DNA from: Chloroflexota bacterium
GTDB taxonomy: Bacteria; Chloroflexota; FW602-bin22; JACPRP01
Length of the DNA stretch: 30,974 nt
Direction: 5' to 3'
NCBI GenBank assembly: GCA_016210495.1
Contig: JACQUC010000260.1
Span: 1 to 30,974, forward strand
Shown: piece after piece, positions 10,773-29,093 of the stretch
Layout: each line of letters starts with the position of its first letter
How positions within the stretch are numbered: the first letter of the stretch is position 1
Made by a program: the position numbers and the translations under genes
The notes under the pieces: model-generated
Told to the model about the DNA's origin: nothing
The model's input: only the letters and a program-made list of their open reading frames with translations
Databases searched by the model: none

Positions 10773-10789
10773 TACGCAGGAGGTGCGTA
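10773..10789 (+). promoter_or_regulatory. Inverted repeat holding the Fic ribosome site in its loop
   Basis: TACGCA (10773-10778) and TGCGTA (10784-10789) flank GGAGG (10779-10783), the ribosome site of the Fic gene. A third TGCGTA is at 10750-10755 inside the promoter. As DNA it could be an operator; as RNA it is a 6-bp stem with the ribosome site as its loop. Confidence 0.6.
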
Positions 10790-10791
10790 TA

Positions 10792-12081: not shown

Positions 12082-12651
12082 TTAATTAACCGGCTCTGTC
12101 CTAGCAAATCCATTCGCGACGTCAGATGTCAATTGCTCGAAGAACGACTTACCCCACAGATAGCGGTCCTTGTCCCGAAGATTCAGGCATCCAGGCACTG
12201 ATTTCTCGACCGTCTGCCTGAAGTCGAGGTACCGATGCCACAGTCTGTCGAAAGTCGTAATGTTATACAGATCATGGAAACAGCCAAGCTGATTGCACAC
12301 CCTGGAATCGTATACGGTAAACTCCTCCGGGTACAGCACAGTGAGAATCGCTGAGGCCATCGGCAGATAGAAACCCCACTCTTCCAACATGTAGCGGAGA
12401 CGCTCTTTCGCGCTGCCCTTTCGAGCGATACCGCTTGTAAGCGCCTGAACTGCCGAATCGAGGCTCACGTGTCCTTTTGATTTCAGCCTTCTGGCCATCT
12501 TTGTCTTGGCCCGGTTGGCCTTCCAAATCACGATACAGAAGAAATCGAAGGCAGACAGATACCCCTGCTCCCGGAACCGAATTCGCACGGTGTCGAACAA
12601 GTAGTCCTCAAGGTGATAGAACGCACGGTAATCCAACCTGGTATCGCTCAA
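12082..12651 (-). CDS. Unrecognised conserved-looking protein, 189 residues (TTG start)
   Basis: I do not recognise a named family. The segment YLSAFDFFCIVIWKANRAKTKMARRL (residues about 31-56) and the block MASAILTVLYPEEFTVYDSRVC followed by LNLRDKDRYLWGKSFFEQL look like a folded helical enzyme-like protein. They faintly recall helix-hairpin-helix glycosylase-like hypothetical proteins, but I cannot support that. The start is placed at TTG 12651 because AAGGAGG (12660-12666) lies exactly 8 bases upstream. The in-frame ATG at 12777 would add 42 residues of low-complexity-looking sequence without a ribosome site. It stands alone between the Fic gene and the TetR operon, in an accessory region. 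Confidence 0.65.
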   Translation of the reverse strand: MSDTRLDYRAFYHLEDYLFDTVRIRFREQGYLSAFDFFCIVIWKANRAKTKMARRLKSKGHVSLDSAVQALTSGIARKGSAKERLRYMLEEWGFYLPMASAILTVLYPEEFTVYDSRVCNQLGCFHDLYNITTFDRLWHRYLDFRQTVEKSVPGCLNLRDKDRYLWGKSFFEQLTSDVANGFARTEPVN

Positions 12652-12777
12652 TTCCCTGGCCTCCTTGTCTCCCAACGCACATAAACCGAAGCTGCTCCTA
12701 CGCGATACTGGGTAAACACTGGTTGTGTCGCGCGGCTCGTGGGTTCGACGGAAGTAAAGTGCCCCGCTTTGGGTCAT

Positions 12778-12957: not shown

Positions 12958-12973
12958 GAGTGAGCGCTCACTC
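12958..12973 (+). promoter_or_regulatory. Palindromic operator, likely bound by the TetR regulator
   Basis: GAGTGAGCGCTCACTC is a perfect 16-bp palindrome centred about 14 bases after the predicted transcription start and before the regulator's start codon. Its place and symmetry fit autorepression by the adjacent TetR protein. Confidence 0.7.
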
Positions 12974-13004
12974 GGTCATTCAGGCGGCGTGCCGGGAGGC
13001 CAGC

Positions 13005-13670
13005 GTGGTCAGGAACAGGCAGCCCCGCGATACTCGGGAGGTCGAGGAGAGAACGCGGCAGATCCTCGAGGCCGCCGCCAGGGTCTTTGCCCGCAAGGGC
13101 TTTCACAAGGCCACCACCCGCGAGATCGCTGCCGAAGCGAGCGTGGCCGAGGGCACTATCTACAACTACTACACAAGCAAGCGCGACCTCCTGCTGGCGA
13201 TGATCTCCAGGACAGCCATCGAGCCTCTGGCAAAGATTCTGACCCAGGCGGATACTCTCGACAACCGGGCTTTCTTCGCCGCCATCCTGCGGGACCGCCT
13301 GGAGGTCTTCGATCGCAATCGGGGCATCGCCCACGTGATGCTGCACGAGCTCCTCGTGGACGATGACCTGCGTCAGCGGTACTTCTCCGATGTCATCGCG
13401 CCCGTCGTCGTGCAGCTTCAGGCGGTAGTGCAGAAGCGAATGGTCGCCGGACAGTTCCGTCCCTTCAATCCGCGCGTGGTCTTTCCGGCCTTCGTGGGCG
13501 CGACAATGCTGGCGGCCATCGCCAACACGCCTGAGATCGCCCCCGTGCCCTTCCCGGGCATGCCGCAGCCCACGCGGGAGCAGCTCATCGCGGAGTTGGT
13601 CGAGCTATTCTTGCACGGCATCGAGGGCACGCCACCTGGCGAAAAGGATAACGGAGGTGGACGACTGTGA
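13005..13670 (+). CDS. TetR-family transcriptional regulator of the efflux operon
   Basis: A 221-residue regulator. RQILEAAARVFARKGFHKATTREIAAEASVAEGTIYNYYTSKRDLLLAMI (about residues 18-67) is a textbook TetR helix-turn-helix. The remainder is a ligand-binding and dimerisation domain whose inducer cannot be read. The GTG at 13005 is chosen because GGGAGG lies 5 bases upstream; the first in-frame GTG (12960) lies inside the operator palindrome. Its stop overlaps the next gene's GTG start (GTGA), so regulator and transporter are co-translated. The layout parallels E. coli cecR, a TetR regulator that controls ybhGFSR. Confidence 0.92.
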   Translation: MVRNRQPRDTREVEERTRQILEAAARVFARKGFHKATTREIAAEASVAEGTIYNYYTSKRDLLLAMISRTAIEPLAKILTQADTLDNRAFFAAILRDRLEVFDRNRGIAHVMLHELLVDDDLRQRYFSDVIAPVVVQLQAVVQKRMVAGQFRPFNPRVVFPAFVGATMLAAIANTPEIAPVPFPGMPQPTREQLIAELVELFLHGIEGTPPGEKDNGGGRL

Positions 13671-15346
13671 GGACAAAGCTGGCTCATTCAAAGCCTCTTC
13701 GCCTGGCTCTGGCCGGCGTGGCGCTGGCCGGCGTGGTCCTGGCCTGGATATACCTGACCGGCCAGCAAGGCTCCGATGCCGCCATCACCGCCTCGGGCAC
13801 CATCGAGGCCGAAGAGGTGAGCGTCGTCTCCGAGGTCGCGGCCAGGATCGAGCGGCTGAACTTGGACGAGGGCGACCCGGTGAAGGCCGGTGACGAGCTG
13901 GTGGTCCTCGACACATCTTTGCTGGATGCCCAAGTGCGCCAGGCGCAGGCGGCGGTCGAGGTGGCCAGGGCGAGTCTGGCGCTGGTGGAACGCGGCCCGC
14001 GCGCCGAGGATTTAAGGCAGGCCGAGGCCGCTTTGGCCCAGGTCACGGCGCAGCGCGACACGGCCAGGACCGCCTGGGAGTACGCGAAAGCAACGCGCGA
14101 CGACCCGCAGGATATCAATGCCAGGATCAACGTTGCCCGCCCCCAACTTGCGGCCGCCGAGGCGCGCCTGGCGCAAATCCGTGGCGGCGCCCGAGAGGCG
14201 GACCTGGAAGCCGCACGGGCCTCGGTCGAGGTGGCCCAGCAAAAGCTGGCCGAGGCCGAAGCCGGGGCGAAGGCCCAGGAGATCGTCGCCGCGGAGGCGC
14301 TGGTGGTGGCGCAGGCGCGCCTGGACGTGCTGCGCAACGGCCCCACCCGAGACCAGATCGCCGAAGCGGAGGCGGGCGTGCGCTCGGCGAGGAATCAGCT
14401 CTACGCCACCCAGGCCGCGGCGGACGCGCAGTTGGCCAGCGGCAGAACCCCTTTCACCAAAGAAATGAAGGAGGCCCAGTCGGGCGCGGCCTTCGAGCAG
14501 GTGGCCGCCGCCGAGGCACGGTTGAGCCAGTTGACGGCGCCGCCAAGGCCCGAAAGCCTCAAGCAGGCCGAAGCGGCGGTGGAGCAGGCCAGGGCCGACC
14601 TGGGGGCGAAGCGAGCCGTGTCGGAGCCCCTGGTCCAGGCTGCCCGGGCCGGCGTGGACAGCGCGATGGCCCGGCTGCGCCAAACGCAGGAAGGCGCAAC
14701 TCAGGAGGAGTTGGCCATCGCCGAGGCCGCCGTGGAGCAGGCCCGGCGCAATCTCGACGATCTGCTGGCGCTGCGCAGTAACCCGATCGCCCTCAATGCC
14801 CAAATCGACACCGCTCAGGGCCAGCACGAGGCGGCCGAAGCGGCTGTTCGGGTGGCACAGGCTCGACTGGAAGGCATCAGAAACGGTGCCACGCCCCAGG
14901 AGATGGCCATCGCTCGGGCGCAGCTTCGCCAGGCGGAAGCGGCCATCGGCGTGCTGGAGGCGCAGCTTCAGAAGACGAAGCTCAAGGCTCCCATCACGGG
15001 CCTGGTGGCCAGGCGAATGGTCCGCGCGGGCGAGACGGCGTCGCCGGGCATGCGTCTGCTAACCCTCGCCAACCTGGATACGGTGAAGCTGACCATTTAC
15101 GTGTCCGAGGGCCGGATCGGCCGCGTACAACTGAGGCAGCAGGTGGAGGTATCCGTCGACTCTTTCCCCGGCCAGACCTTCGCCGGCGAGGTGGTCTACA
15201 TCTCGCCCAGGGCGGAGTTCACGCCGCGCAATGTCCAGAGCCAGAAGGAAAGAGCGAGCACGGTCTTTGCCGTCAGGGTCAGCATCCCGAACCCGAACCA
15301 CGCGCTCAAGGCCGGCATGCCGGCGGACGCGCGGATAAAGATGTAA
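13667..15346 (+). CDS. HlyD/YbhG-type membrane fusion protein with an extended repeated coiled coil
   Basis: A 559-residue adaptor, against about 330 for E. coli YbhG. An N-terminal anchor or signal helix (LRLALAGVALAGVVLAWIYL, 11-30) is followed by the first half of the lipoyl domain (GTIEAEEVSVVSEVAARIERL...GDPVKAGDELVVLD). A very long alanine/glutamate-rich helical region (about 85-435) comes next. The second lipoyl half is APITGLVARRMVRAGETASPG, and beta-barrel sequence with GMPADARIKM ends it. The helical region contains about seven copies of a unit like GAxxxELxxAEAAVxxA, starting near residue 110 and ending near 425. It should link the ABC-2 permease to the cell exterior. The start GTG overlaps the TetR stop, with GGAGG 9 bases upstream. 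Confidence 0.9.
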   Translation: MRTKLAHSKPLRLALAGVALAGVVLAWIYLTGQQGSDAAITASGTIEAEEVSVVSEVAARIERLNLDEGDPVKAGDELVVLDTSLLDAQVRQAQAAVEVARASLALVERGPRAEDLRQAEAALAQVTAQRDTARTAWEYAKATRDDPQDINARINVARPQLAAAEARLAQIRGGAREADLEAARASVEVAQQKLAEAEAGAKAQEIVAAEALVVAQARLDVLRNGPTRDQIAEAEAGVRSARNQLYATQAAADAQLASGRTPFTKEMKEAQSGAAFEQVAAAEARLSQLTAPPRPESLKQAEAAVEQARADLGAKRAVSEPLVQAARAGVDSAMARLRQTQEGATQEELAIAEAAVEQARRNLDDLLALRSNPIALNAQIDTAQGQHEAAEAAVRVAQARLEGIRNGATPQEMAIARAQLRQAEAAIGVLEAQLQKTKLKAPITGLVARRMVRAGETASPGMRLLTLANLDTVKLTIYVSEGRIGRVQLRQQVEVSVDSFPGQTFAGEVVYISPRAEFTPRNVQSQKERASTVFAVRVSIPNPNHALKAGMPADARIKM

Positions 15347-15348
15347 CC

Positions 15349-16479
15349 ATGTTTCACAGAATCTGGCCGGTGATCAAAAAAGAATTCATCCAAACCGTGC
15401 GCGATATGCGGACGCTGATCATCGTGCTGCTGCTGCCGCCGGTGCAGATCATTCTGATGGGCTACGCGGTGAACAGCGATATCAAGCACATCAGCACCGT
15501 CGTGGTCGACCAGAGCCGCGACGAGCGCAGCCGCGCCCTGATCGCCGCTTTCACGACCACGGAGTATTTCGACGTGGTCGGCTATGTGGATAGCCTGTCC
15601 AGGGTCCGCGAGATGATCGACCGCGGCCAGGTGAAGGTGGGCTTCATCATTCCACCGGACTACTCGGCCGATCTGCTGGCGGGACGGCAGGCGTCGGTGC
15701 AGGTGGTCATCGATGGCTCCGATCCCAACGTCGCGCAGACGGCGCTCTTCGCCGCCGACGCGGTGGCCCAGGCCAAAGGGGCGCAGATTCTGGGCGAGGC
15801 CGTCGATCGGCTGGGCCTTGGCTCCAGCCTGATGATGCCGGTGGAGCTGCGTCCCAACGTGCTTTACAACCCCGACATGCGCAGCGTGAACTTCATGATC
15901 CCCGGGCTGATCGGCATGATCCTTCAGTTCCAGGGCGTCGTCCTGACTTCGTTTGCTATTGTTCGAGAGCGGGAGCGCGGCACGCTGGCGCAACTGATCA
16001 TGACGCCCTTGAAACCCTGGGAGCTGATGCTCGGCAAGCTGGCGCCCTTCGTGCTGATCGCCTTCTGGAATGCCACGCTGACGGCCGTCGTCGGTCTGCT
16101 CTGGTTCAAGGTGGAGTTCGCTGGCAGCTTCCTCCTGCTGATGGCTCTCTCGATCCTTTTCCTAACCGGCTCTCTCGGACTGGGCCTGCTGATCTCCACG
16201 GTGTCAAAGACGCAGGGCCAGGCGATGCAGACGGCGCTGATGACTATGTTGCCGGCCTTCCTGCTGACGGGCCTGATCTTCCCGCTGGAGAACCTGCCCA
16301 ACGTGCTCTATTATCTGAGCTACCTGTTTCCGCTATCATACTTCCTACGCATCGTGAGAGGCATCGCGTTGAAAGGAGTGGGCATCGAGTATCTGTGGGG
16401 CGAGGTCTTGCTCCTCGGCATCTTCAGCATCGCGGTCTTTCTGGTCAGCGCCCGCCGCTTCCAGAAACGGCTGGCTTAG
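15349..16479 (+). CDS. ABC-2 type permease (YbhS/YbhR-like)
   Basis: A 376-residue integral membrane protein. It has one N-terminal membrane helix (LIIVLLLPPVQIILMGYAV), a large external domain (about 45-175; NSDIKHISTVVVDQSRDE ... VVIDGSDPN) and five C-terminal helices, with the intracellular coupling motif RERERGTLAQLIMTPLKPWELMLGK (about 206-230). This is the standard shape of ABC-2 exporters such as YbhS, YbhR and YhiI-type drug exporters. E. coli has two permease genes in the matching operon and only one is present here, so it may work as a homodimer. It begins 2 bases after the adaptor stop without a clear ribosome site, so translation is probably coupled. Confidence 0.92.
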   Translation: MFHRIWPVIKKEFIQTVRDMRTLIIVLLLPPVQIILMGYAVNSDIKHISTVVVDQSRDERSRALIAAFTTTEYFDVVGYVDSLSRVREMIDRGQVKVGFIIPPDYSADLLAGRQASVQVVIDGSDPNVAQTALFAADAVAQAKGAQILGEAVDRLGLGSSLMMPVELRPNVLYNPDMRSVNFMIPGLIGMILQFQGVVLTSFAIVRERERGTLAQLIMTPLKPWELMLGKLAPFVLIAFWNATLTAVVGLLWFKVEFAGSFLLLMALSILFLTGSLGLGLLISTVSKTQGQAMQTALMTMLPAFLLTGLIFPLENLPNVLYYLSYLFPLSYFLRIVRGIALKGVGIEYLWGEVLLLGIFSIAVFLVSARRFQKRLA

Positions 16480-16494
16480 AGAACACCTCAAATC

Positions 16495-16517
16495 GTAGGG
16501 GCGAGGTCTCCTCGCCC
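16495..16517. repeat. GTAGGGGCG hairpin repeat, copy 1
   Basis: GTAGGGGCGAGG, TCT, CCTCGCCC forms a short strong hairpin between the permease and the first ATPase. Copies with the same core lie at 22164-22187 (inverted) and 29071-29093. Confidence 0.7.
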
Positions 16518-16585
16518 TGGACTGGATTGTTCGCTTTGAGCCAGGTACCGCTCTTGAGACAACTTCTCAACTCGGGAGACGAGAT

Positions 16586-17539
16586 TTGGAGTTCGCGGTC
16601 GAAACAACTGGCTTGGGCCGCCGCTATGGCAAAAATTGGGCCGTCAGAGAGCTGAATCTACAAATCAAAAAAGGCGAGGTCTTCGGGCTGGTCGGCCCCG
16701 ATGGCGCCGGCAAGACGACGACAATTCGCATGCTGGGTGGCATCGTCCCGCCCTCCACGGGCTCGATTCGTGTTGCGGGCGTCGACGTGGTGGCCAACCC
16801 GGAGCGGGTGAAGGAACTGATTGGTTATGTGCCCCAGCGCTTCGCCCTCTACGAGGACCTCACCGTCCAGGAGAACATGGACTTCTTCGCCGACGTGTAC
16901 GGGGTTCCCCGGGACATTAGGAAGGCCCGCCAGCTACGCCTGCTCGAGTTCAGCCGGCTCGAGGCTTTTCGCGATCACCTGGCTCAGAAGCTATCCGGCG
17001 GGATGAAGCGGAAACTGTCGCTGGCCTGCACCCTCATCCACCAGCCCGAGGTGTTGCTCCTGGACGAGCCGACGACCGGCGTCGACCCTATCTCGCGCCG
17101 CGAGCTCTGGGAGATACTCCAGCGGCTGTTGCAGGAAGGGACGACGGTGCTGTACTGCACGCCGTATATGGACGAGGCCGAGCGGTGCAACAGGGTGGCC
17201 TTTCTGGCGGGCGGCAGGATTCTGGCGTGCGACGAGCCGCGACGATTGAAGGGTCAAATCGCCGTGACCGTCCTGGAGCTTGATGCTTCGCCGTCTCGCC
17301 TGGCCCTCGAAATTGCCCGAGGCACCCCAGACGTGGAAGACGTGCAGAGCTTCGGCAAAAAGATTCACCTTGCCGCCGGGAACGCAGACGAAGTGAAATC
17401 CCGCCTCCTCGTGCGCCTGGCGGCACGCGGCGTCGACGTCGCCGACCTGCGCGTAGTCGCGCCATCGCTCGAAGACGTCTTCGTGCGCCTCAGCAGGCTA
17501 CAACCGGTTGCCGAACGCCGTGGTGATCAGTACATATGA
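16586..17539 (+). CDS. ABC transporter ATPase, equivalent to the N-terminal half of YbhF (no H-loop histidine)
   Basis: A 317-residue ATPase. Walker A GPDGAGKTTT (about 38-47), Q-loop VPQRFALYEDLTV, signature LSGGMKRKLSLACTL and Walker B VLLLDEPTTGVDP are intact. The switch position, usually T-H-Y, reads TPYMDEAERC, so the H-loop histidine is proline. GLVGPDGAGKTT with D rather than N, and LLEF..L.....LAQKLSGGMK, match the first half of E. coli YbhF, which (from memory) also lacks the histidine. It is therefore probably the degenerate partner in an ATPase heterodimer with the next gene. The start is TTG 16586 with GGGAG 7 bases upstream. Confidence 0.9.
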   Translation: MEFAVETTGLGRRYGKNWAVRELNLQIKKGEVFGLVGPDGAGKTTTIRMLGGIVPPSTGSIRVAGVDVVANPERVKELIGYVPQRFALYEDLTVQENMDFFADVYGVPRDIRKARQLRLLEFSRLEAFRDHLAQKLSGGMKRKLSLACTLIHQPEVLLLDEPTTGVDPISRRELWEILQRLLQEGTTVLYCTPYMDEAERCNRVAFLAGGRILACDEPRRLKGQIAVTVLELDASPSRLALEIARGTPDVEDVQSFGKKIHLAAGNADEVKSRLLVRLAARGVDVADLRVVAPSLEDVFVRLSRLQPVAERRGDQYI

Positions 17540-17556
17540 TCTGTTAGACGTCCAAT

Positions 17557-17590
17557 CCCCTTTCCCTCTGGGAGAGGGTTAGGGTGTGGG
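17557..17590. repeat. CCCTCTCCC-type hairpin repeat, copy 4
   Basis: CCCCTTTCCCTCT, GG, then GAGAGGGTTAGGGTGTGGG lie in the gap between the two ATPase genes; a further TTTGGGTGAGGG ends at 17607. The repeat has inserted inside the operon without breaking a gene. Confidence 0.65.
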
Positions 17591-17615
17591 AAGGGTTTGG
17601 GTGAGGGAAACAAAC

Positions 17616-18569
17616 GTGGATTTTGCCGTACAAGCCACAGACCTTACCAAACGCTTCGGCGATTTCCTCGCCGTCGACGCCGTGAGCTTTCGGGTGAAAC
17701 CCGGCGAGATATTCGGCTTCCTCGGGCCCAACGGCTCCGGCAAGACGACGACGATCAGGATGCTGTGCGGCATCGTGCCGCCCTCCTCGGGGAGCGGGCG
17801 TGTCCTGGGCTGGGACGTAGCCCGGGAAGCCGAGCGCATCAAGTCCCAGATCGGCTACATGTCGCAGAAGTTCTCGCTGTACGAGGACCTGACCGTGTGG
17901 GAAAATCTGGATTTCTTTGCCAGCGTCTACGGCGTGCCGAACGGTCGCAAGCGAGAGCGGATCAAGGAACTGGTCGCGATGGCGGACCTGGCGGGTCGCG
18001 AGACCGAGATAGCTGCCAATCTATCTGGTGGCTGGAAGCAGCGGATGGCTCTCGGCTGCGCCATCGTGCACCAGCCACCCGTCCTCTTCCTGGACGAGCC
18101 GACGTCGGGCGTCGATCCCGTCTCGCGGCGGAACTTCTGGGAGATGATCTACGCCCTGGCCGAGCGCGGCGTGGCCGTGTTCGTCACGACGCACTATATG
18201 GACGAGGCGGAGCACTGCGACACCGTTGCCCTGATGCACGCCGGCAAGCTCATCGCCTGCGACACGCCAGAGGCCCTGAAGGCGGGCAGTCTCAAGGGCG
18301 ATCTGCTGGAGATCGACTGCGAGCCGGCGACCGATGCCATCGAGCTGCTGCGACGTCACGCCGGCGTACTCGAGGCCGCTCCCTACGGCGTGCTGGTTCA
18401 CGTCGAGGTCGACGCGGCCTCCCTGGCGTCACAGCTTAGACGCGCGCTCGAAGAGAACGGCATCAGGGTGAACGGCGTGCTTCCCGTTCAACCGTCCCTG
18501 GAGGACGTGTTCGTGTCGCTTATCGGGCAGCAACTGGCTCAGAAATCGATCAGCGCACCACCTCGGTGA
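17616..18569 (+). CDS. ABC transporter ATPase, equivalent to the C-terminal half of YbhF (catalytically complete)
   Basis: A 317-residue ATPase with GPNGSGKTTT (Walker A), MSQKFSLYEDLTV (Q-loop), LSGGWKQRMALGCA (signature), VLFLDEPTSGVDP (Walker B) and a proper H-loop VTTHYMDEAEHCD. The C-terminal tail (about 230-317) ends with QPSLEDVFVSLIGQQL, like its partner. The start is placed at GTG 17616: GAGG lies 9 bases upstream, MDFAVQATDLTKRFG then lines up with MEFAVETTGLGRRYG of the first ATPase, and both proteins become 317 residues. An in-frame start at 17586 would lie in the repeat. Its 3' end overlaps the convergent DUF2723 gene by 20 bases. Confidence 0.92.
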   Translation: MDFAVQATDLTKRFGDFLAVDAVSFRVKPGEIFGFLGPNGSGKTTTIRMLCGIVPPSSGSGRVLGWDVAREAERIKSQIGYMSQKFSLYEDLTVWENLDFFASVYGVPNGRKRERIKELVAMADLAGRETEIAANLSGGWKQRMALGCAIVHQPPVLFLDEPTSGVDPVSRRNFWEMIYALAERGVAVFVTTHYMDEAEHCDTVALMHAGKLIACDTPEALKAGSLKGDLLEIDCEPATDAIELLRRHAGVLEAAPYGVLVHVEVDAASLASQLRRALEENGIRVNGVLPVQPSLEDVFVSLIGQQLAQKSISAPPR

Positions 18570-20677: not shown

Positions 20678-21349
20678 ATGAGCAAAGGACCGCTGGAGCG
20701 CGAGCAGTATTACCTGGGACAGAAATTCGAGGTGCCGGGCGAGGTTGTCGAAGAGATTCTGGTGCCCGCGCGGGGCTACCTGCCGGCGCGCGTGCTGAAG
20801 CAGGGCCAGGTCGCGCGCATCATCGACGTCGAGGGGCAGCAGGTCGCCGACATTATCCTCTGGGACAAGGAGAACCTCCAGAACTTCTCCTCGTGCGTCA
20901 ATACCCTGGTCGTCTATCGCACCTGGAAGATCCGCAAGGGCCACAGCCTCTACTCCAGGTATTGCACCAAGCTGGCCACCATCGTCGACGATACCTGCGG
21001 CGTCCACCATTTTGGCGGCGGCTTCTGCAACGCGGAGCTTAACGCGGTACGTTACGGCGTGGAGGCCACGCCCAACTGCCGCGACAACCTCACGGCGGCC
21101 ATGGGCGGCTACGGGCTCACGCGCGACGACATCGAAATCGATGCCTGCTTCTGCCTGTTTATGAACTTCCCTTATAGATCCGACGGGACGCTGGCGATCG
21201 AGGAGCCGGTTAGCAAACCGGGCGACTACGTCGATCTGCTGGCCGAGAGGGACCTGATCATGGCCTTGTCCAACTGCCCTCAAGAAAGAAACCCGTGTAA
21301 CTCGTACAACCCTAGTTTGCTAAAGGTGATCATTTACAACCCCGTCTGA
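20678..21349 (+). CDS. DUF1989 (urea carboxylase-associated) protein, copy 1
   Basis: A 223-residue protein of the DUF1989 family. VEGQQVADIILWD, SSCVNT, GVEATPNCRDNL, and the tail DLIMALSNCPQERNPCNSYNP are diagnostic. Some members found beside 'urea carboxylase' genes form carboxyguanidine deiminase (CgdAB) in guanidine breakdown; others have no assigned role. C73, H89, C96, H110, C117, C134, C200 and C207 are shared with copy 2 and are candidates for metal ligands or catalysis. No carboxylase or allophanate hydrolase gene is in this window, so the guanidine role is not supported by context. GGGAGG lies 8 bases before the ATG. The hairpin repeat at 21348-21441 begins within its stop codon. 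Confidence 0.9.
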   Translation: MSKGPLEREQYYLGQKFEVPGEVVEEILVPARGYLPARVLKQGQVARIIDVEGQQVADIILWDKENLQNFSSCVNTLVVYRTWKIRKGHSLYSRYCTKLATIVDDTCGVHHFGGGFCNAELNAVRYGVEATPNCRDNLTAAMGGYGLTRDDIEIDACFCLFMNFPYRSDGTLAIEEPVSKPGDYVDLLAERDLIMALSNCPQERNPCNSYNPSLLKVIIYNPV

Positions 21350-21441
21350 ACCGCAGATTAAGCAGATTAATGGATTTCGCAGATGAGCCTCGCTGATCCG
21401 GAAATCTGCGTAATCCCATAATCTGCGTCAATCTGTGGTTC
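21348..21441. repeat. Long imperfect palindrome of the CGCAGATT type, copy 1
   Basis: GAACCGCAGATTAAGCAGAT at the left pairs with the right arm, whose reverse complement reads GAACCACAGATTGACGCAGA. The 94-base element fills most of the gap between the two DUF1989 genes. A related element lies at 30742-30820. It is a dispersed intergenic repeat and as RNA would form a long hairpin between the two coding regions. Confidence 0.75.
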
Positions 21442-21463
21442 AGACAGCAGGGAGGGATTCTGA

Positions 21464-22135
21464 ATGAGCAAAGGCCCTTTGGAACGTGAGCAATTCTACC
21501 TGGCGCAGAAGGCCCAGGTGCCCGGGCAGGTGGTCGAGGAGATTCTGGTCCCTGCCAGAGGCTACCTGCCCGCACGGGTGCTGAAAAAAGGCCAGGTCGC
21601 ACGCATTATCGACGTCGAGGGCCAACAGGTGGCGGACGTTGTGCTGTGGGACGCGCACAACCTCAAGGATTTCTCCTCGTGCGTCAACACCCAGGTCATC
21701 TACCGCACCTGGAAAATCCGCCAGGGCCACAGCATTCACTCCAAGTACTGCACCAAGCTGGCCACCATCGTCGACGATACGGTTGGCATCCACTACTTCG
21801 GCGGCTTTTTCTGCAACGCTCAGGTCAACTTCCTCCGCTTCGGCGTCGAGGCTACGCCAAACTGCCGCGACAACCTCGTCGCCTCGATGGGTAACTACGG
21901 CTTCACGCGCGACAACATACAGGTCGATTCCTGCTTCGCCCTGTTTATGAATTTCCCCTACGACGACGAGGGCGGGTTTATGGTCGTGGAACCGACCAGC
22001 AAACCGGGCGACTATGTAGATCTGTTGGCGGAGAGGGACATCGTAATAGCGCTATCCAACTGTCCCTCCGAGCGAAACCCGTGTAACGCGTACAACCCTA
22101 CGCTTTTGAAGGTGGTTATCTATAACCCTGTGTGA
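21464..22135 (+). CDS. DUF1989 (urea carboxylase-associated) protein, copy 2
   Basis: A 223-residue tandem paralogue of the preceding gene, equal in length and identical at roughly three quarters of positions by eye. Both start MSKGPLEREQ and end YNPV. The same motifs are present: VEGQQVADVVLWD, SSCVNT, GVEATPNCRDNL and ALSNCPSERNPCNAYNP. The cysteine/histidine set is kept (C73, H89, C96, H110, C117, C134, C200, C207), while C107 and H111 of copy 1 are V and Y here. In guanidine degraders CgdA and CgdB are a heteromeric pair of this family, so a hetero-oligomer is plausible; those pairs are usually far more divergent than this one. GGGAGGG lies about 7 bases before the ATG. Confidence 0.9.
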   Translation: MSKGPLEREQFYLAQKAQVPGQVVEEILVPARGYLPARVLKKGQVARIIDVEGQQVADVVLWDAHNLKDFSSCVNTQVIYRTWKIRQGHSIHSKYCTKLATIVDDTVGIHYFGGFFCNAQVNFLRFGVEATPNCRDNLVASMGNYGFTRDNIQVDSCFALFMNFPYDDEGGFMVVEPTSKPGDYVDLLAERDIVIALSNCPSERNPCNAYNPTLLKVVIYNPV

Positions 22136-22163
22136 GTGCTGATGCAGATCGGAGAGCCCAAGA

Positions 22164-22187
22164 GGGCGCGGAGACCGCGCCCCTACG
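22164..22187. repeat. GTAGGGGCG hairpin repeat, copy 2 (inverted)
   Basis: GGGCGCGG, AGA, CCGCGCCC then CTACG, the reverse complement of the type at 29071-29093. It lies between the second DUF1989 gene and the first molybdopterin subunit and could act as a weak attenuator. Confidence 0.7.
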
Positions 22188-22271
22188 TTCAATGGGCAGG
22201 TTGCCTTTCCGTATCGTACGTAATCATAACAATCAGTTCGTCAGGTCATCGAACGGAATGGAGGGGTCTAG

Positions 22272-24824
22272 TTGACGGCACAGGTCAAGCAAGACGAATG
22301 GATTCAAACCGTCTGTTGCATGTGCCAGAACGCGTGTGGGCTTACGGTCCACGTCGTCGATGGCACGGTGGTAAAGGTCGAGGGAGACACGACCAATCCC
22401 CATAATCTGGGCAGGATTTGCGCCAAGGGAAACGCCTCGATTATGGGGCTCTACGATCCCAATCGGATCGCCAAGCCGCTGAAGAGGACCAATCCTCAGA
22501 AGGGTATCGGCGTCGATCCCCAGTGGCGGGAGATCGAATGGGAAGAGGCCCTGAGTATCGTCGCGGCGAAGCTGAAGGAGATCTACGACGAAGACCCTCG
22601 CCAGCTCCTGTTCAACAGCTTCGACGTCCAGGCCTTTATGCCCATCGGCCTCTGTTTCAACTCGGCCTTCGGCACGCCCAACTTCACCACCGGGTCGGCG
22701 CGCTACTACTGCGGCAATGGCTTCCACCCGATAACCTACACCACTCAAGGCGTGTTTTTCGCCGAGCCCGACCTGGATTACTGCAACTACCTGCTCTTGA
22801 TTGGCAGCCAGAACGGCTTCGTGGCCAATACAAACCCGATGGGGCTCACACAGAAAATGTCCGACGCGCGCATCCGCGGCATGCGCGTTGTGGTGGTCGA
22901 CCCGGTGTGCTGCAACGCTGCAGCTAAGGCGGACGAGTGGATACCTATCAAGACGGGGACTGACACCGCCCTTGCGCTGGGGATGCTCGACGTCATCCTC
23001 AACGAGCTGAATATCTACGACGCCGAATTCCTCCGGAAATACACCAATGCGGCGTACCTCATCGGGTCGGACGGTCTGTACATCAGGGATCAGGCCACCG
23101 GCAAGCCTCTGCTCTGGCATTCCCTGCGCGGCCAGGCGATCCCTTACGACGAAATCGACCCCACCGCCGCTGTGCTGGAGGGAGCGTTCACGGTGGAGGG
23201 GCAGCAAGCCAAGCCTGCCTTTCAGCTCCTCAAGGAGCACGTCCGTAACTATTCATTGGAGAAGGTCGCCAAAATCACGACCATCCCGGCCGAGACCATC
23301 CACAGGATCGCCAAAGAGTTCGCCACGGCTGCCAGAGTGGGCAGCAAGATCGTCGTTCACGGGCAGGAGCTTCCTTACCGTCCGGCCTGCGCCAATTGGA
23401 ACCGCGGTCCTATTGCCCACAAGCACGCCATGCACGTGGGCTATGCCATCCAGTTGCTCAACGTGGTTATGGGAGCCATCGACGTTCCCGGTGGGCACCT
23501 GGGCATAGCCGTCAAAGGCCCGAGCTGGGAGCCCAGCGAGGGGCCTGATGGTATACTGGTCGCCGCGCCCATCGTGGCCATGATCTACGGCGTCTACCCG
23601 CCACGCAAGGTCAAAAGACCGCAGACCCTGGAGCTAATGGAGCTGCTCCCGGTGGCGGTCTACGGCGGGCCAATCGTCCCGGCGACGCTGATGGAGCCGG
23701 AGAAGTTTGGCCTCGACTACAAGTGCAAGATGATGATCGTCTGTCGCAGCAACACGCTGATGAGCGGAGCCGAGCCTGAGCGGATGGCCGAAGCTTATGC
23801 CAGCGTTCCGTTTACGGTTTCGTTTTCCACCTTCGTCGACGAAACGGCAGAGCTGGCGGACATCGTCTTGCCCGACACACACTGGCTGGAGAGACTCGAT
23901 CCTTTCCCGAACATGCTTATCGAGTGGCTGCTCGCGGGCGAAGGCTCCTGGTACTATATGGTGCGCCAGCCGGTCGTCAATCCGTACGGCGAATCCAGGC
24001 ACTGGGTCGAGGTTATTCTGGAGCTTGCCGACCGCATCGGCATCCGCGCCAACTTCAGCCAGGTGGCCAACACGCTCTTGCAGCTCAAAGACGATTGCAG
24101 GCTGGACCCCGCGGTGAAATACTCCTACCCAGAAATCATAGATCGCATCCTCAAGTCGCGCTTCGGCAGCGAGCACAGCCTAGAATGGTTCAAAGCCCAC
24201 GGCTTTGTCACACAGCCCCGCTCCATCGAGGAAGCGTATCCGCGACCCTTCATCAAGGGCAGGATTCCGCTCTACCTGGAGCACTATATCCGGGCAGGAC
24301 GCGAGGTCGAAAAGGTGACCAGGGAGCTAAACATCCCCTGGGAGGTCGACGACTACCAGCCTATGCCGGAGTGGAAGCCCTGCGAGGCCCACGAGAGTCG
24401 AGATCCCGCGTTCCCCTTCATTGTGACGAATTTCAAGGTGCCGTTTCACACGCATTCATGGTCCAGCCAGAACCCCTGGCTGGAGGATGTCTCGTTCCAG
24501 TCGCTCTGGGAGCCCGACTCCATCTTGATCAACAGTCGCGCGGCGGCGGCGCAGAACATCGTCGATGGCGAGCTGGTGTGGCTGGAAAGTGAACGCGGTA
24601 AGCGTGTCCGGGGCAGGGCCAGGGTGACCGAGTGTGTGCACCCCGATGTGGTCGCAACCATTGGTCTGTCCGGCAACTGGGCTAGGGGCACACCCATCGC
24701 CCGGGGCAACGGCATTCACCTCAACAAGCTGATACCCTACGATCTGAAAAGGATGGACTACGTTTCCGCCGGCCTGGACGCCTGCGTGCGGGTCAAAGTT
24801 GTGAAAGCGGGTGAAGTGAGATGA
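22272..24824 (+). CDS. Molybdopterin oxidoreductase catalytic subunit A1 (DMSO reductase superfamily, Cys-ligated, no Tat signal)
   Basis: 850 residues. C15-x2-C18-x3-C22 and C50 (GRICAKG) bind one [4Fe-4S] cluster. Domain sequence typical of the Mo/W-bis-MGD superfamily follows, including LLIGSQNGFVANTNP, VVVVDPVCCNAAAKADEWIPIKTGTDTALALGML, ADIVLPDTHWLERLDPFP and a C-terminal dinucleotide-binding domain (SILINSRAAAAQNI ... ATIGLSGNWARGTPIARGNG). C147 in RYYCGNGFHP lies where the metal-binding residue is expected, predicting cysteine ligation as in PsrA, ArrA or acetylene hydratase. No twin-arginine signal is present: the first cluster begins at residue 15. The start is TTG 22272 with GGAGGGG 5 bases upstream. 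The substrate is unknown. It overlaps the FeS subunit gene by 4 bases (ATGA). Confidence 0.9.
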   Translation: MTAQVKQDEWIQTVCCMCQNACGLTVHVVDGTVVKVEGDTTNPHNLGRICAKGNASIMGLYDPNRIAKPLKRTNPQKGIGVDPQWREIEWEEALSIVAAKLKEIYDEDPRQLLFNSFDVQAFMPIGLCFNSAFGTPNFTTGSARYYCGNGFHPITYTTQGVFFAEPDLDYCNYLLLIGSQNGFVANTNPMGLTQKMSDARIRGMRVVVVDPVCCNAAAKADEWIPIKTGTDTALALGMLDVILNELNIYDAEFLRKYTNAAYLIGSDGLYIRDQATGKPLLWHSLRGQAIPYDEIDPTAAVLEGAFTVEGQQAKPAFQLLKEHVRNYSLEKVAKITTIPAETIHRIAKEFATAARVGSKIVVHGQELPYRPACANWNRGPIAHKHAMHVGYAIQLLNVVMGAIDVPGGHLGIAVKGPSWEPSEGPDGILVAAPIVAMIYGVYPPRKVKRPQTLELMELLPVAVYGGPIVPATLMEPEKFGLDYKCKMMIVCRSNTLMSGAEPERMAEAYASVPFTVSFSTFVDETAELADIVLPDTHWLERLDPFPNMLIEWLLAGEGSWYYMVRQPVVNPYGESRHWVEVILELADRIGIRANFSQVANTLLQLKDDCRLDPAVKYSYPEIIDRILKSRFGSEHSLEWFKAHGFVTQPRSIEEAYPRPFIKGRIPLYLEHYIRAGREVEKVTRELNIPWEVDDYQPMPEWKPCEAHESRDPAFPFIVTNFKVPFHTHSWSSQNPWLEDVSFQSLWEPDSILINSRAAAAQNIVDGELVWLESERGKRVRGRARVTECVHPDVVATIGLSGNWARGTPIARGNGIHLNKLIPYDLKRMDYVSAGLDACVRVKVVKAGEVR

Positions 24825-25438
24825 GCAATAAGTACGGAATGGTCATCGATCTGAAGCGGTGCGTGGGATGCCAGAGCTGTACAGTCGCGTGCAAGGCTGA
24901 GAACGGCACACCGCAAGGGGTGTATCTGGGCAGGGTCCTCGAGCAGGAGGTGGGCACCTACCCCAACGCAAAACGGGAGTTTTTGCCCGTGCTGTGCAAC
25001 CAGTGCGAGGATGCTCCCTGCTTGAGGGCCTGTCCGACGGGTGCGACGTACCAGTTGGAGAATGGCATTATCGACGTCGACAACAAGAAGTGCATTGGCT
25101 GTCGAACCTGCTACGTCTCCTGTCCGTACCACAATCGCTTCTATGTCACTTCGGAGGTGCTAAAGCGTGGCGCGTACGGCAATGGGCACCTTACGCCTTA
25201 CGAAAAGGCAAAACTGGGACGTTACGAGGCGGGCACGGTAACCAAATGCGACTTCTGCGCCCACCGTGTGGCCGAGGGTTTGGATCCCGCGTGCGTGATT
25301 ACCTGCCCAGCCAAAGCGCGCACCTTCGGCGATCTCAACGATCCCGGCAGCGAAGTGAACCGGCTGATCCACCAGCGGCGGGGATACCAGCTTCACCCGG
25401 AGTATCAGACGAAGCCCTCTGTGTACTACATAGAATGA
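24821..25438 (+). CDS. Four-cluster [4Fe-4S] ferredoxin subunit B (DmsB/NrfC/PsrB type)
   Basis: 205 residues with four cysteine groups: CVGCQSCTVAC (14-24), CNQCEDAPCLRACP (59-72), CIGCRTCYVSCP, and CDFC ... DPACVITCP. All sixteen expected cysteines are visible, so it should carry four [4Fe-4S] clusters and pass electrons between a molybdopterin subunit and the NrfD anchor. The ATG overlaps the A1 stop (ATGA), which couples their synthesis. It is the only B subunit in the cluster and must serve both A1 and A2, unless another is encoded elsewhere. Confidence 0.95.
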   Translation: MSNKYGMVIDLKRCVGCQSCTVACKAENGTPQGVYLGRVLEQEVGTYPNAKREFLPVLCNQCEDAPCLRACPTGATYQLENGIIDVDNKKCIGCRTCYVSCPYHNRFYVTSEVLKRGAYGNGHLTPYEKAKLGRYEAGTVTKCDFCAHRVAEGLDPACVITCPAKARTFGDLNDPGSEVNRLIHQRRGYQLHPEYQTKPSVYYIE

Positions 25439-25471
25439 GAATACAGCGAGAAATGAGGAGGGAAGCGATTC

Positions 25472-26368
25472 ATGGGCACGGCTAGAGTCATAGTAAAGAG
25501 ACGCAAATTCATCATCGGGTACCACGAGCAGGATCAATGGACCTGGCTGATCGCGTCCGCGTTCTTCTTTGGCAAGATCGGCGCGGGGTTGTTTTTCGTT
25601 TCTCTTCTACTCGGAGAGGGTAACCGAATGGGCATCCTCGTGGGCACGCTGATCGTGCTCATCGGCAAAGGCGGCGCCCACCTGCTCTACCTTGGCCGTC
25701 CCGAGCGTTTCTGGCGAGCGATGCTCAGGCCGGCGACCTCCTGGGTATCGCGGGGCCTGATCGCCATGGGCGTCCTGATTGGCTTCGGCATCATCTTCTA
25801 TTTCGTGGCTCCACCATACAGTCAGCCCATTCAAGCATTGCGGGCCATCGCCCTTCTGGTGGCGCTGTTCGTAATGATCTACGATGGCTTTCTGATGAAC
25901 TCCTCGCCGGCCATACAGTTTTGGAACAACGCGCTGCTGCCCGTGCTGTGCTTCTTCTACGCGCTGCTGGGAGGCAGCACCCTGACTTTCCTGCTGGCGA
26001 GCCTGTCGACATCTGGCGTCGTGCGAATGGAGCAGATCGAGTCTTTAGAAACGAGCATCCTCTTGTTCAATCTGGCGCTCCTTATCATCTACCTCGTGAG
26101 CGCCTCGGGAGCCAGCTCGGGGGCCAGGGTTTCTGTCGAAGAATTGCTCAGCGGCAGGTTCAGAATGCCGTTCCTCCTTGGCGTCGTCGTCGTGGGCATC
26201 GGCGTGGCGATTGGCGCCGACCTGCTGTTCGCGGCCGACAGGAACGTCGCCTACCTGTGGCTGCTGCTTGCCGGCGACCTGGTGGGACACTTTCTCGTGT
26301 TCTACCTCTTCTTGAGGGCAGGGGTGTTCTCGCCGCAGCGGCTGCGGGGCCCGGAGCGCTACGCGTAG
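25472..26368 (+). CDS. NrfD/PsrC-type quinone-interacting membrane anchor subunit C
   Basis: 298 residues with about eight membrane helices, for example WLIASAFFFGKIGAGLFFVSL, GILVGTLIVLIGKGGAHLLYL and FLLGVVVVGIGVAIGADLLF. The conserved GRPERFWRAMLRP..SWVSRG stretch after helix 2 is characteristic of NrfD proteins (compare LGRP.RAW....F..SW.S.E). NrfD anchors exchange electrons with membrane quinones for DmsAB-, PsrAB- and NrfC-type subunits. It lies 33 bases after subunit B, with GGAGGGAAG upstream of the ATG. It carries no cytochrome motifs. Confidence 0.92.
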   Translation: MGTARVIVKRRKFIIGYHEQDQWTWLIASAFFFGKIGAGLFFVSLLLGEGNRMGILVGTLIVLIGKGGAHLLYLGRPERFWRAMLRPATSWVSRGLIAMGVLIGFGIIFYFVAPPYSQPIQALRAIALLVALFVMIYDGFLMNSSPAIQFWNNALLPVLCFFYALLGGSTLTFLLASLSTSGVVRMEQIESLETSILLFNLALLIIYLVSASGASSGARVSVEELLSGRFRMPFLLGVVVVGIGVAIGADLLFAADRNVAYLWLLLAGDLVGHFLVFYLFLRAGVFSPQRLRGPERYA

Positions 26369-26380
26369 AGGCGATACGTC

Positions 26381-26406
26381 TGATCCGCCTGAGCTACGTC
26401 GGATCA
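26381..26406 (+). promoter_or_regulatory. Hairpin before the second molybdopterin gene
   Basis: TGATCCG (26381-26387) pairs with CGGATCA (26400-26406) around a 12-base loop. It ends two bases before the GAGGAGG ribosome site (26408-26414) of the next gene. No T-tract follows. It could protect or tune the downstream message; this is inference. Confidence 0.5.
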
Positions 26407-26419
26407 CGAGGAGGCTGTA

Positions 26420-28990
26420 GTGCCCATTTCGCTTCAGCAAGACGAATGGGTCCCCACCGTGTGCCATATGTGCCAGAACGCGTGCGGTGTCAAGGCGCAC
26501 GTCGTCGATGGCACGGTGGTGAGGATCGAGGGCGACGCTGACAACCCCCACAACTTCGGGCGGATCTGCGCCAAGGGCAACGCCGCGCTCATGGGCCTGT
26601 ACGACCCGCATCGCATCGGCAGGCCTCTGAAGAGGACGAACCCCAAAAAAGGCCTGGGAGTCGATCCCCAGTGGCAGGAGATCGAGTGGGAAGAGGCCCT
26701 CAGCACCATCGCCGAGAAGCTCAAGGATATTTACGAGGAAGACTCGCGCCAGCTCCTCATCCACAGCTTCGATCCACAGGCCTATATTCCGATAGGGCTC
26801 TGTTTCACCTCGGCTTTTGGCACGCCCAATTTTACCGCCGGCGCAGCGCGCTACTACTGCGGCAACGGCTTTCACCCGATAACCTACACCACCCAGGGCG
26901 TCTTCTTCTCCGAGCCCGATGTTGACGTCTGCAACTACATGCTATTGATCGGCAGCCAGAACGGCTTCGTCGCCAACACGAACCCGATGGGTCTGACCCA
27001 GAAGACCGCCGACGCTCGCCTGCGCGGAATGAAGGTCGTCGTGGTCGATCCTGTCTGCTGCAACGCCGCGGCCAAGGCGGACGAATGGATACCCATCAAG
27101 CCGGGCACCGATGCGGCCTTCGCTCTGGGAATGCTGAACGTCATCGTCAACGAGCTGAATGTCTACGACGGCGAATTCCTGCGCAAGTACACGAACGCCG
27201 CCTATCTAATTGGCACCGATGGCCTTTACGTGAGGGATGAGGCAGGCGACAAGCCTCTGCTTTGGGACATGGATCTGAGCGCGCCGGTGCCTTATGACCA
27301 GATCGACGCCAACAGGGCCGCCCTGGAGGGGGAGTTCGAGGTCCAGGGTCAGAAGGCGAAGCCCGCCTTCCAACTGCTCAAAGAGCACCTGCAAAAGTAC
27401 CCGCTCGAGAGAGTGGCTGAGATCACGACCATCCCCGCGGAGACCATTCGCAGAATCGCCCGGGAGTTCGCCACCGCCGCGCGGGTCGGCAGCACGGTCG
27501 TCATTCACGGGCAGGAGCTACCTTATCGCCCAGTTAGCGCCAACTGGAATCGCGGGCCCATTGCCCACAAGCACGCGATGCACGTGGGCTACGCCATTCA
27601 GATGCTCAACATCGTCGTAGGCGCCATCGACGTTCCCGGCGGGCACATGGGAGTGGCCGTCAAGGGGCCGGACTGGGAGCCCAGCGAGGGACCGGATGGG
27701 CTGCTCGTGGCCGCGCCGGTGGTGACCCTGACCTACGGCGTCTATCCGCCGCGCAAGGCCAGAAGGCCGCAAACGCTGGAGCTGATGGAGCTGATGCCCG
27801 TGTCGGTTTACGGCGGACCTTTCGTTCCGGCGACGCTGCTGGAGCCGGAGAAGTTCGGGCTGGACTACCGGTGCAAGATGATGATTCAGGTTCGCTCCAA
27901 CACCGTGCTGAGCGGATTCGAGCCGCGGCGTATTGCCGAAGCCTACGCCAACATTCCCTTCGTCGTGTCGTTTGCGACAGTGGTCGACGAGACGGCAGAG
28001 CTGGCGGACATCGTCCTACCCGACACGCACAGTCTGGAAAGGCTCGATCCCTTTCCCAACAGATTGACGGAGTTTATTCTGGCCGGGGAAAGCTCCTGGT
28101 ACTACATGCTGCGCCAACCGGTGGTGAAGCCGTACGGGCAGGCGCGGCACTGGATCGAAGTATTGCTCGATCTCGCCGACCGCATCGGCATCCAAGCCAA
28201 CCTGTACCAGGTCGCCAACACTTTGCTGCGGCTCAAGGATGGGGAAAAGCTGGACCCGCGGGTCAAGTACGCGTACGCAGAGATCGTGGACCGGGCGCTC
28301 AGGTCGCGTTTTGGCGACGAACACGGGCTCGAATGGTTCAAGGCCAACGGATTCATTACGCTGCCGCGCTCGATACAGGAGGCCTACCCGCGGCCGTTCG
28401 TCAAGGGCAGGATTCCGCTGTACCTGGAATACTACATCCGGGCCGGGCAAGACGTGGAGAAAATAACCAAGGAAATGGGCATCTACTGGGAGACCGACGA
28501 CTACATCCCACTTCCCGAGTGGAAGCCCTGCGAGTCGCACGAGAGCAACCCGAGCTACCCCTTGATCGCCACCAACTTCAAGGTCCCGTTCCACACCCAT
28601 TCTTACACGGCGGAAAACCCCTGGCTGGAGGACGTGTCTTTTCAGTCGCTCTGGGAGCCCGACTCGATCCTCATCAACAGCAAGACGGCGGCGGCGCAAA
28701 ACATTGCCAACGATGACGCGGTGTGGCTGGAGACGGAGCGAGGCCACCGTGTCCAGGGCCGGGCCAAGGTCACGGAGTGCATCCATCCCGAGGTGGTGGC
28801 GACGATTGGGCTGAGTGGCCACTGGGCCAAAGGGATGCCAATAGCTCGTGGAAACGGCATCCACTTCAATAGCTTGATACCGTACGACCTGAAACGCATG
28901 GATTTCGTCTCGTCGGCGCTGGATGCGTGCGTGCGTGTTAGAGTTCTCAAGGCTAGCCAAGTCGTAGCAGAAGCAAAGGGCGGGCCCTGA
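26420..28990 (+). CDS. Molybdopterin oxidoreductase catalytic subunit A2, paralogue of A1
   Basis: 856 residues, strongly similar to A1 along the whole length. It keeps CHMCQNAC with GRICAKG for the [4Fe-4S] cluster and the same predicted metal ligand, C147 in RYYCGNGFHP. Differences from A1 cluster in stretches such as HSLRGQAIPYDEIDPTAA versus DMDLSAPVPYDQIDANRA and in the C-terminal tail (SQVVAEAKGGP), so the two probably differ in substrate or regulation instead of one being decayed. There is again no Tat signal. The GTG start at 26420 has GAGGAGG 5 bases upstream. Placed after A1-B-C, it most likely shares the same electron-transfer subunits. Confidence 0.9.
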   Translation: MPISLQQDEWVPTVCHMCQNACGVKAHVVDGTVVRIEGDADNPHNFGRICAKGNAALMGLYDPHRIGRPLKRTNPKKGLGVDPQWQEIEWEEALSTIAEKLKDIYEEDSRQLLIHSFDPQAYIPIGLCFTSAFGTPNFTAGAARYYCGNGFHPITYTTQGVFFSEPDVDVCNYMLLIGSQNGFVANTNPMGLTQKTADARLRGMKVVVVDPVCCNAAAKADEWIPIKPGTDAAFALGMLNVIVNELNVYDGEFLRKYTNAAYLIGTDGLYVRDEAGDKPLLWDMDLSAPVPYDQIDANRAALEGEFEVQGQKAKPAFQLLKEHLQKYPLERVAEITTIPAETIRRIAREFATAARVGSTVVIHGQELPYRPVSANWNRGPIAHKHAMHVGYAIQMLNIVVGAIDVPGGHMGVAVKGPDWEPSEGPDGLLVAAPVVTLTYGVYPPRKARRPQTLELMELMPVSVYGGPFVPATLLEPEKFGLDYRCKMMIQVRSNTVLSGFEPRRIAEAYANIPFVVSFATVVDETAELADIVLPDTHSLERLDPFPNRLTEFILAGESSWYYMLRQPVVKPYGQARHWIEVLLDLADRIGIQANLYQVANTLLRLKDGEKLDPRVKYAYAEIVDRALRSRFGDEHGLEWFKANGFITLPRSIQEAYPRPFVKGRIPLYLEYYIRAGQDVEKITKEMGIYWETDDYIPLPEWKPCESHESNPSYPLIATNFKVPFHTHSYTAENPWLEDVSFQSLWEPDSILINSKTAAAQNIANDDAVWLETERGHRVQGRAKVTECIHPEVVATIGLSGHWAKGMPIARGNGIHFNSLIPYDLKRMDFVSSALDACVRVRVLKASQVVAEAKGGP

Positions 28991-29070: not shown

Positions 29071-29093
29071 GTAGGGGCGCGGTCTCCGCGCCC
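29071..29093. repeat. GTAGGGGCG hairpin repeat, copy 3
   Basis: GTAGGGGCGCGG, TCT, CCGCGCCC. Same family as 16495-16517 and 22164-22187. It lies between the molybdopterin operon and the histidine kinase. Confidence 0.7.

Follow-up and report, generated by a model that had tools for sequence, protein, structure and literature searches.

Does a molybdopterin oxidoreductase that has two catalytic subunits and one electron-transfer module use these subunits as alternatives, and does the pair of DUF1989 genes upstream of it belong to the same pathway? These questions are raised by a locus of six intact open reading frames (ORFs), all on the + strand, which spans positions 20678-28990 of a 30,974-nucleotide stretch of DNA from a Chloroflexota bacterium (contig JACQUC010000260.1; the whole stretch is termed the window). 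The genes, in the order D1-D2-A1-B-C-A2, encode two DUF1989 proteins, a molybdopterin catalytic subunit, a ferredoxin subunit, an NrfD/PsrC-type membrane subunit and a second molybdopterin catalytic subunit. An earlier reading of the letters alone (the sequence-only reading) had described tandem DUF1989 genes and two A subunits flanking one iron-sulfur and one NrfD subunit on one strand, and both coordinates and domain calls are borne out by the ORFs and by Pfam. The interpretation that we prefer, if with slightly less than even confidence, is that A1-B-C-A2 is a quinone-linked oxidoreductase with alternative cytoplasmic heads, and that the DUF1989 pair possibly acts in the same pathway. The locus is a compact place in which to ask what this subfamily of A subunits does, and whether DUF1989 chemistry extends beyond carboxyguanidine and trimethylamine N-oxide (TMAO).

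Architecture of the predicted oxidoreductase

The catalytic subunits A1 (22272-24824, + strand; 850 amino acids, TTG start) and A2 (26420-28990, + strand; 856 amino acids, GTG start) both contain the Pfam domains Molybdop_Fe4S4, Molybdopterin and Molydop_binding. Between them lie the four-cluster ferredoxin subunit B (24821-25438, + strand; 205 amino acids), with Fer4 dicluster domains (Pfam), and the membrane subunit C (25472-26368, + strand; 298 amino acids), which scores 57 bits with the Pfam NrfD model (cut-off 25.8). There is a 4-base overlap between A1 and B, the remaining gaps being 114 (D1-D2), 136 (D2-A1), 33 (B-C) and 51 bases (C-A2), and a GGAGG-type ribosome-binding site lies upstream of five of the six genes, the exception being B. 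The sequence of B, which begins directly before the first cluster motif, holds 16 Cys residues in four groups, and a sequence search of the Protein Data Bank (PDB) places it close to the PsrB and ArrB chains; C had no match in the PDB sequence search. With their head domains, predicted metal ligand, four-cluster B and NrfD anchor, A1/A2, B and C have the predicted make-up of a PsrABC-like quinone-linked iron-sulfur molybdoenzyme.

The heads were placed in an A family consisting of the best 120 matches, that is, A1, A2 and 118 listed relatives, each of which matches A1 over almost the whole length at 46% identity or more. Among the matches listed the closest outside the window is 55% identical, and the source labels include Chloroflexi, Firmicutes, Deltaproteobacteria, Thermodesulfobacteriota and Binatia. 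Cys147, the predicted metal ligand, and His152 are kept in the alignment in A1, A2 and all 118 listed relatives, and the four N-terminal Cys residues of the 4Fe-4S cluster, present in both A1 and A2, occur in 111, 117, 117 and 118 of the 118, the remainder being gaps. Seven archaeal homologues were found, and the five of these that were aligned contain all six residues. Cys147 aligns with one Cys each in PsrA, acetylene hydratase and ArrA, which we take to be the metal ligand in those enzymes. By pattern the ligand motif has the form C-G-N in 96 of the 120 family members and two of the five archaeal proteins, the Cys itself being found in all by alignment. The best PDB fold matches of the A1 model, for which the mean predicted local distance difference test (pLDDT) score is 85, are ArrA, PcrA and PsrA, at ~18-23% identity (Foldseek).

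A pattern search of the first 45 residues found no twin-arginine translocation (Tat)-like motif in any of the 120 family members, A1 and A2 included, which makes it most likely that the heads are cytoplasmic, unlike YnfE. Neither A1 nor A2 reaches an NCBIfam equivalog cut-off, the best scores being those with the PhsA model (252 and 253 bits against 694), and the A subunits form part of a subfamily of molybdopterin enzymes, probably cytoplasm-facing, that curated NCBIfam equivalogs do not name. Resemblance to PsrABC and PhsABC lies in this best-scoring A model, in the best PDB sequence match (PsrA, 134 bits), in the closeness of B to PsrB and in the aligned Cys. The differences are the shortfall from the PhsA cut-off, the presence of two A genes, a C subunit that has no PDB match and the lack of a Tat-like motif, whereas the catalytic subunit of PhsA/PsrA type is Tat-exported. 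A cytoplasm-facing A-B on an NrfD-type anchor is presumably found likewise in SoeABC, the cytoplasmic sulfite:quinone oxidoreductase, to which A1-B-C-A2 is likened by description.

Likeness to ArrAB and acetylene hydratase extends to the fold (Foldseek rank 1 for ArrA, rank 13 for acetylene hydratase) and the aligned Cys, but identity over the fold is ~20%. Acetylene hydratase, moreover, has an Asp that we take to be the catalytic Asp13, and this residue aligns with Gln19 of A1 and A2, ruling out that identity. Residue 19 (22326-22328 in A1), which follows the second cluster Cys, is Gln in A1, A2 and the proteins P0023 and P0024, and Tyr, Phe or Trp in 110 of the 118 listed relatives; it is possible that Gln19 marks a sub-clade with a different reaction. 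The tree also places Azospirillum_H2 inside the A family (90/76), on a very long branch that the program flagged as unsafe. Viral contigs scanned with the alignments of A and D gave no confirmed relative, and a plasmid search returned A relatives of just 24-32% identity. A scan of genome contigs with a single protein yielded one locus.

Proposed sharing of one electron-transfer module by two heads

The operon can reasonably be taken, as the sequence-only reading proposed, to encode two heads that share one B-C electron-transfer module, and the failure of the A subunits to reach any equivalog cut-off is likewise in keeping with that proposal. We suggest that A1-B-C-A2 would be an oxidoreductase of the PsrABC/PhsABC type, quinone-linked and with a Mo- or W-bis-pyranopterin centre, its heads on the cytoplasmic side, in which A1 and A2 would dock in turn on the single B-C module. 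The two would be interchangeable heads differing slightly in specificity or regulation, as in ynfEFGH. Electrons would pass from the metal centre to the 4Fe-4S cluster of the head, through the four clusters of B to NrfD and on to the quinone pool, presumably in this direction.

Twin heads have a precedent in Escherichia coli K-12, where ynfE-ynfF-ynfG-ynfH form an A-A-B-C row on one strand, with YnfE and YnfF 70.8% identical. As in the window, two paralogous A genes, one B and one C stand in a row, and YnfG, like B, presumably has four clusters. The order differs (A-B-C-A in the window), the chaperone gene dmsD is next in line in E. coli, and no DUF1989 gene is among the 19 features shown there. 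DmsA, YnfE and YnfF group together in the tree (100/99) with A1 and A2 apart from them, and the latter score 85-100 bits with the YnfE and YnfF models (cut-offs 1650-1675). The Cys-type metal ligand predicted for A1 and A2 is a further difference. YnfE and YnfF also carry Tat signals, according to the accessible text of PMC5203670. The same portion of that paper describes the Salmonella ynf selenate reductase operon, in which the A paralogues are 71% identical and YnfF contributes little to the reduction of selenate beyond what YnfE does. Twin-head composition has therefore already been described, against the earlier claim that no such system is known; of a cytoplasmic version with a DUF1989 pair no description was found in the literature searched, most subscription papers being outside its reach.

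It could be argued that one complex contains both A1 and A2, making the enzyme truly two-headed; A2 would then act on what A1 produces, or the two would form a heterodimer. In favour of this, both copies are long-lived (dS ~1.2, see below), and there is a second probable twin pair of independent origin. B and C, however, are each single and of normal size, and known B-type subunits bind one A. The small contribution of YnfF beside YnfE (accessible text of PMC5203670) also fits alternative heads, and we regard a two-headed complex as decidedly unlikely.

Twin heads probably recur within the A subfamily, as equal contig sizes point to a pair of A genes on each of two further contigs. P0030 and P0032, which are 74% identical and lie on contigs that are both 16,998 bases long, are sisters in the tree (100/100) and probably represent the second twin, arisen separately. 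P0027 and P0043 (60% identical, contigs both of 192,475 bases) are not neighbours in the tree; the full A tree joins P0027 to P0033 and P0043 to P0055. The combination of A plus C probably recurs as well, because P0023 and one NrfD relative sit on contigs that are both 7,731 bases long.

Divergence of the paralogue pairs

A1 and A2 are identical at 650 of 845 positions (77%), and D1 and D2 at 171 of 223 (77%). Codon comparison gave nonsynonymous (dN) and synonymous (dS) divergences of 0.151 and 1.163 for the A pair and of 0.153 and 1.011 for the D pair. The two pairs have thus diverged to an equal extent, and dN/dS ratios well below 1 are consistent with purifying selection on both. With dN at 0.15 and dS at 1.0-1.2 in each pair, the duplications do not look recent and all four copies look maintained. 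Measured against the 118 listed relatives, A1 departs at four and A2 at one of 102 positions that are 95% conserved, and D1 at none and D2 at two of 29; at the 85% level the departures are 19 (A1) and 12 (A2) of 217, and two (D1) and six (D2) of 58. No copy looks decayed by this comparison. Chance or a sequence artefact as the source of the locus is ruled out by the six intact ORFs and the low dN/dS.

The A tree joins A1 and A2 as sisters (100/100), and P0023 branches next to them (97/98). The D tree neither supports nor rejects the pairing of D1 with D2 against the proteins P0141 and P0142: the grouping appeared in 0% of bootstraps with 25 rows, and in 17%, with a p-AU (approximately unbiased test) of 0.35, with 16 rows, so that the split of D1 from D2 may have come before or after P0141 and P0142. 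The equal divergence of the D and A pairs suggests, without demonstrating it, a single joint duplication of a D-A unit. A more speculative proposal follows from the near-equal dN and dS of the pairs and from a distant archaeon with a DUF1989 gene beside an A homologue (see below): the duplicated functional unit could be one DUF1989 enzyme plus one Mo/W head, each head exchanging a nitrogen-bearing substrate with its own DUF1989 partner, in two parallel channels on one B-C module and in an undescribed pathway. We consider this unlikely.

The DUF1989 proteins

D1 (20678-21349, + strand) and D2 (21464-22135, + strand) are both 223 amino acids long and score 152 and 131 bits, respectively, with the Pfam DUF1989 model (cut-off 27). 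The model of D1 (mean pLDDT 92.8) matches the DUF1989 entries 3siy, 3oru and 3di4 at template modelling (TM) scores of 0.80-0.83. Cys117, Cys134, Cys200 and Asp58 are kept in D1, D2 and all 118 listed relatives. In the TMAO demethylase Tdm, the accessible text of PMC12560246 reports three Zn cysteines, Asp198 and His276, a proposed iron ligand. By offset from the alignment, Cys117, Cys134 and Cys200 of D1 appear to be the Zn cysteines of Tdm as given in that text, and Asp58 its Asp198; His276 aligns with Thr131 of D1. D1 and D2 contain DUF1989 alone by Pfam, with no GCV_T domain, and score 85 and 87 bits with the Tdm model against a cut-off of 1100. Membership of the Tdm-like TMAO demethylase family is ruled out by these scores, the absence of GCV_T and the Thr at the position of His276.

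A role in a guanidine or carboxyguanidine nitrogen pathway, with D1 and D2 forming a CgdA/CgdB-type deiminase, had been suggested by the link to carboxyguanidine drawn in the sequence-only reading. Like CgdAB and Tdm, D1 has the DUF1989 fold, and its score of 162 bits with UAAP2, one of two urea carboxylase-associated models, with 142 for D2, could be taken to favour this identity. These values are, however, far under the UAAP2 cut-off (285), as are the UAAP1 scores of 108 and 92 bits (cut-off 206). Both proteins, moreover, prefer the same model, UAAP2, whereas the CgdAB carboxyguanidine deiminase is heteromeric according to the accessible text of PMC11410670; D1 and D2 thus do not resemble a pairing of CgdA with CgdB. 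No Rfam family, and hence no guanidine riboswitch, was matched in the window at gathering scores, and no carboxylase, allophanate hydrolase or urease was found in a Pfam scan of 18 window proteins, a set that excluded the larger ORFs P0014 and P0016 and the small ORFs. On the model scores, the neighbourhood as far as scanned and the riboswitch search we reject the pathway as a working identity; the carboxyguanidine link is not supported, and a deiminase of this type is in our judgement most improbable.

We propose instead that D1 and D2 would be Zn-Cys3 DUF1989 enzymes in the pathway of A1-B-C-A2, breaking a C-N bond either ahead of the redox reaction or following it. That they belong to this pathway appears slightly more probable than that they do not. 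If so, the substrate would be narrowed to nitrogen compounds; if not, the locus would still represent a cytoplasmic counterpart of the ynfEFGH twin-head layout.

Possible linkage of the DUF1989 pair to the oxidoreductase

A rival to a shared pathway is that the two gene groups lie side by side with no functional connection, D1-D2 and A1-B-C-A2 being on transcripts of their own. A 19-base GC-rich repeat bears on this. The copy at 22164-22182 (+ strand) forms a strong hairpin in the 136-base D2-A1 gap, and an exact inverted copy lies after A2 at 29075-29093 (- strand), so that the repeat brackets A1-B-C-A2. With a weaker third copy at 16499-16517 the repeat has three sites, or five matches counting both strands, against 0.06 expected by chance, and it may be a dispersed repeat family of the source genome or the mark of a transferred block. 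Separate transcripts are not favoured by the folding of the D2-A1 gap, which is not unusual (z -1.65), or by the calls in that gap, in which no terminator-like site was found. The common strand, the short gaps, the ribosome-binding sites upstream of five of the six genes and the equal divergence of both pairs likewise argue for a connection.

Linkage in bacteria was assessed as equality of contig size between the A relatives (118 rows) and the DUF1989 relatives (115 rows), both lists consisting of best matches with the longest contig for each cluster, in which the neighbours of a DUF1989 gene would go unseen if it stood close to the end of a contig. No equal sizes were found between the two lists, although the contigs of the nearest D relatives measure 27-50 kb. 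The three annotated nearest D relatives among the matches listed, 69-77% identical and from Chloroflexi metagenome-assembled genome (MAG) contigs of 49,759, 32,636 and 26,702 bases, have contig sizes found nowhere among the A and C contigs listed, and the nearest A listed from outside the window is no more than 55% identical, which also favours unrelated neighbours. Between the lists for C and D two sizes are shared (5,167 and 2,368); one pair comes from different sources and the other could be real, and we take both as coincidence. The lists thus leave the D-A linkage weak rather than absent.

A direct case of proximity was found in an archaeon. The groundwater 'Thaumarchaeota' MAG G001 has a single DUF1989 gene, and 2.5 kb away, on the same strand, is an A homologue that is 47% identical to A1. 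Across 398 genomes of the phylum of G001, A homologues (E<=1e-120) occur in five and DUF1989 in two, the genome at the centre of the draw being the one with both. The chance of at least one such overlap is ~0.025, assuming that both draws of archaeal genomes were identical. DUF1989 is therefore present in one of the five archaeal genomes with A homologues and in none of the other four, and it is not in the neighbourhood of six of the seven archaeal A matches. Regular absence of DUF1989 from homologous loci, the outcome named by the sequence-only reading as contrary to a link, is thus largely what was observed in these genomes and in the contig sizes; the G001 locus keeps the link open. Weighing the repeat and the missing co-occurrence against the gene arrangement and the archaeal neighbourhood, we hold it quite possible that the two gene groups are unrelated, if somewhat improbable.

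As a separate observation, another archaeal DUF1989 gene (genome G236, locus L021, 909-1523) lies near genes that resemble an ABC transporter, an LLM-type oxidoreductase and a xanthine-dehydrogenase-type Mo enzyme, all of these except DUF1989 being assigned by eye.

Archaeal neighbourhoods and the type of substrate

The loci of the archaeal A homologues in G001 and in a second genome, G135, offer hints of the substrate. UbiD decarboxylases are found within ~2 kb of the A homologue in two of the four loci, and indicate organic, perhaps aromatic, substrates. Small ThiS/MoaD-like proteins stand beside A in three of the four (L022, 5409-5756; L013, 7108-7431; L014, 7805-8128), two of them exceeding the Pfam cut-off and one falling just short of it, and hint at a dedicated supply of the Mo/W cofactor. 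In G135 a B-like protein and a membrane protein lie by A in both loci (by eye); one such membrane protein was scanned and had no Pfam match. The archaeal neighbours fit Mo/W enzymes that act on organic, possibly aromatic, compounds, by guilt by association from distant relatives. We think it more likely that the A1-B-C-A2 enzyme would oxidize or hydroxylate an organic substrate than that it would reduce a respiratory acceptor, the type of substrate being surmised from such neighbours.

Several observations weigh against the quinone-linked reading of A1-B-C-A2 with a DUF1989 partner. The trees give no sign that D and A share a history, as A1 and A2 form a clade and D1 and D2 do not clearly do so. 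The link between the DUF1989 genes and the A subunits is drawn from the window plus one archaeal locus, and in the latter LeuC- and LeuD-type genes lie between the two (LeuC by the Pfam aconitase domain, LeuD by eye). Both A homologues of G001 lack a ferredoxin or NrfD neighbour (by eye), the NrfD match in that genome being on another contig, so B-C is not used throughout the A family. Upstream of D1 and of A1, no sigma-70-like promoter was called on the + strand. The metal site is read from sequence alone, because the loop that holds Cys147 (residues 145-151) has a pLDDT of <50. No characterised enzyme closely related to A1 and A2 was found.

Other genes in the window

The locus is flanked upstream by a gene on the opposite strand for a TMEM260-like protein and downstream by a GAF-histidine kinase gene (Pfam). 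Elsewhere in the window lie a type IIG restriction enzyme-methyltransferase with an Eco57I domain (1126-4200, - strand), a SoFic-like Fic protein with a DUF4172 domain (10783-11895, + strand) and a 231-amino-acid ORF (12082-12777, - strand) with no Pfam or PADLOC match at E<=0.001. A run of + strand genes at 12960-18569 resembles a drug-type exporter operon: it encodes a TetR regulator, an HlyD-type adaptor, a protein like a permease (by eye) and two like ABC ATPases, the second of these likewise assigned by eye.

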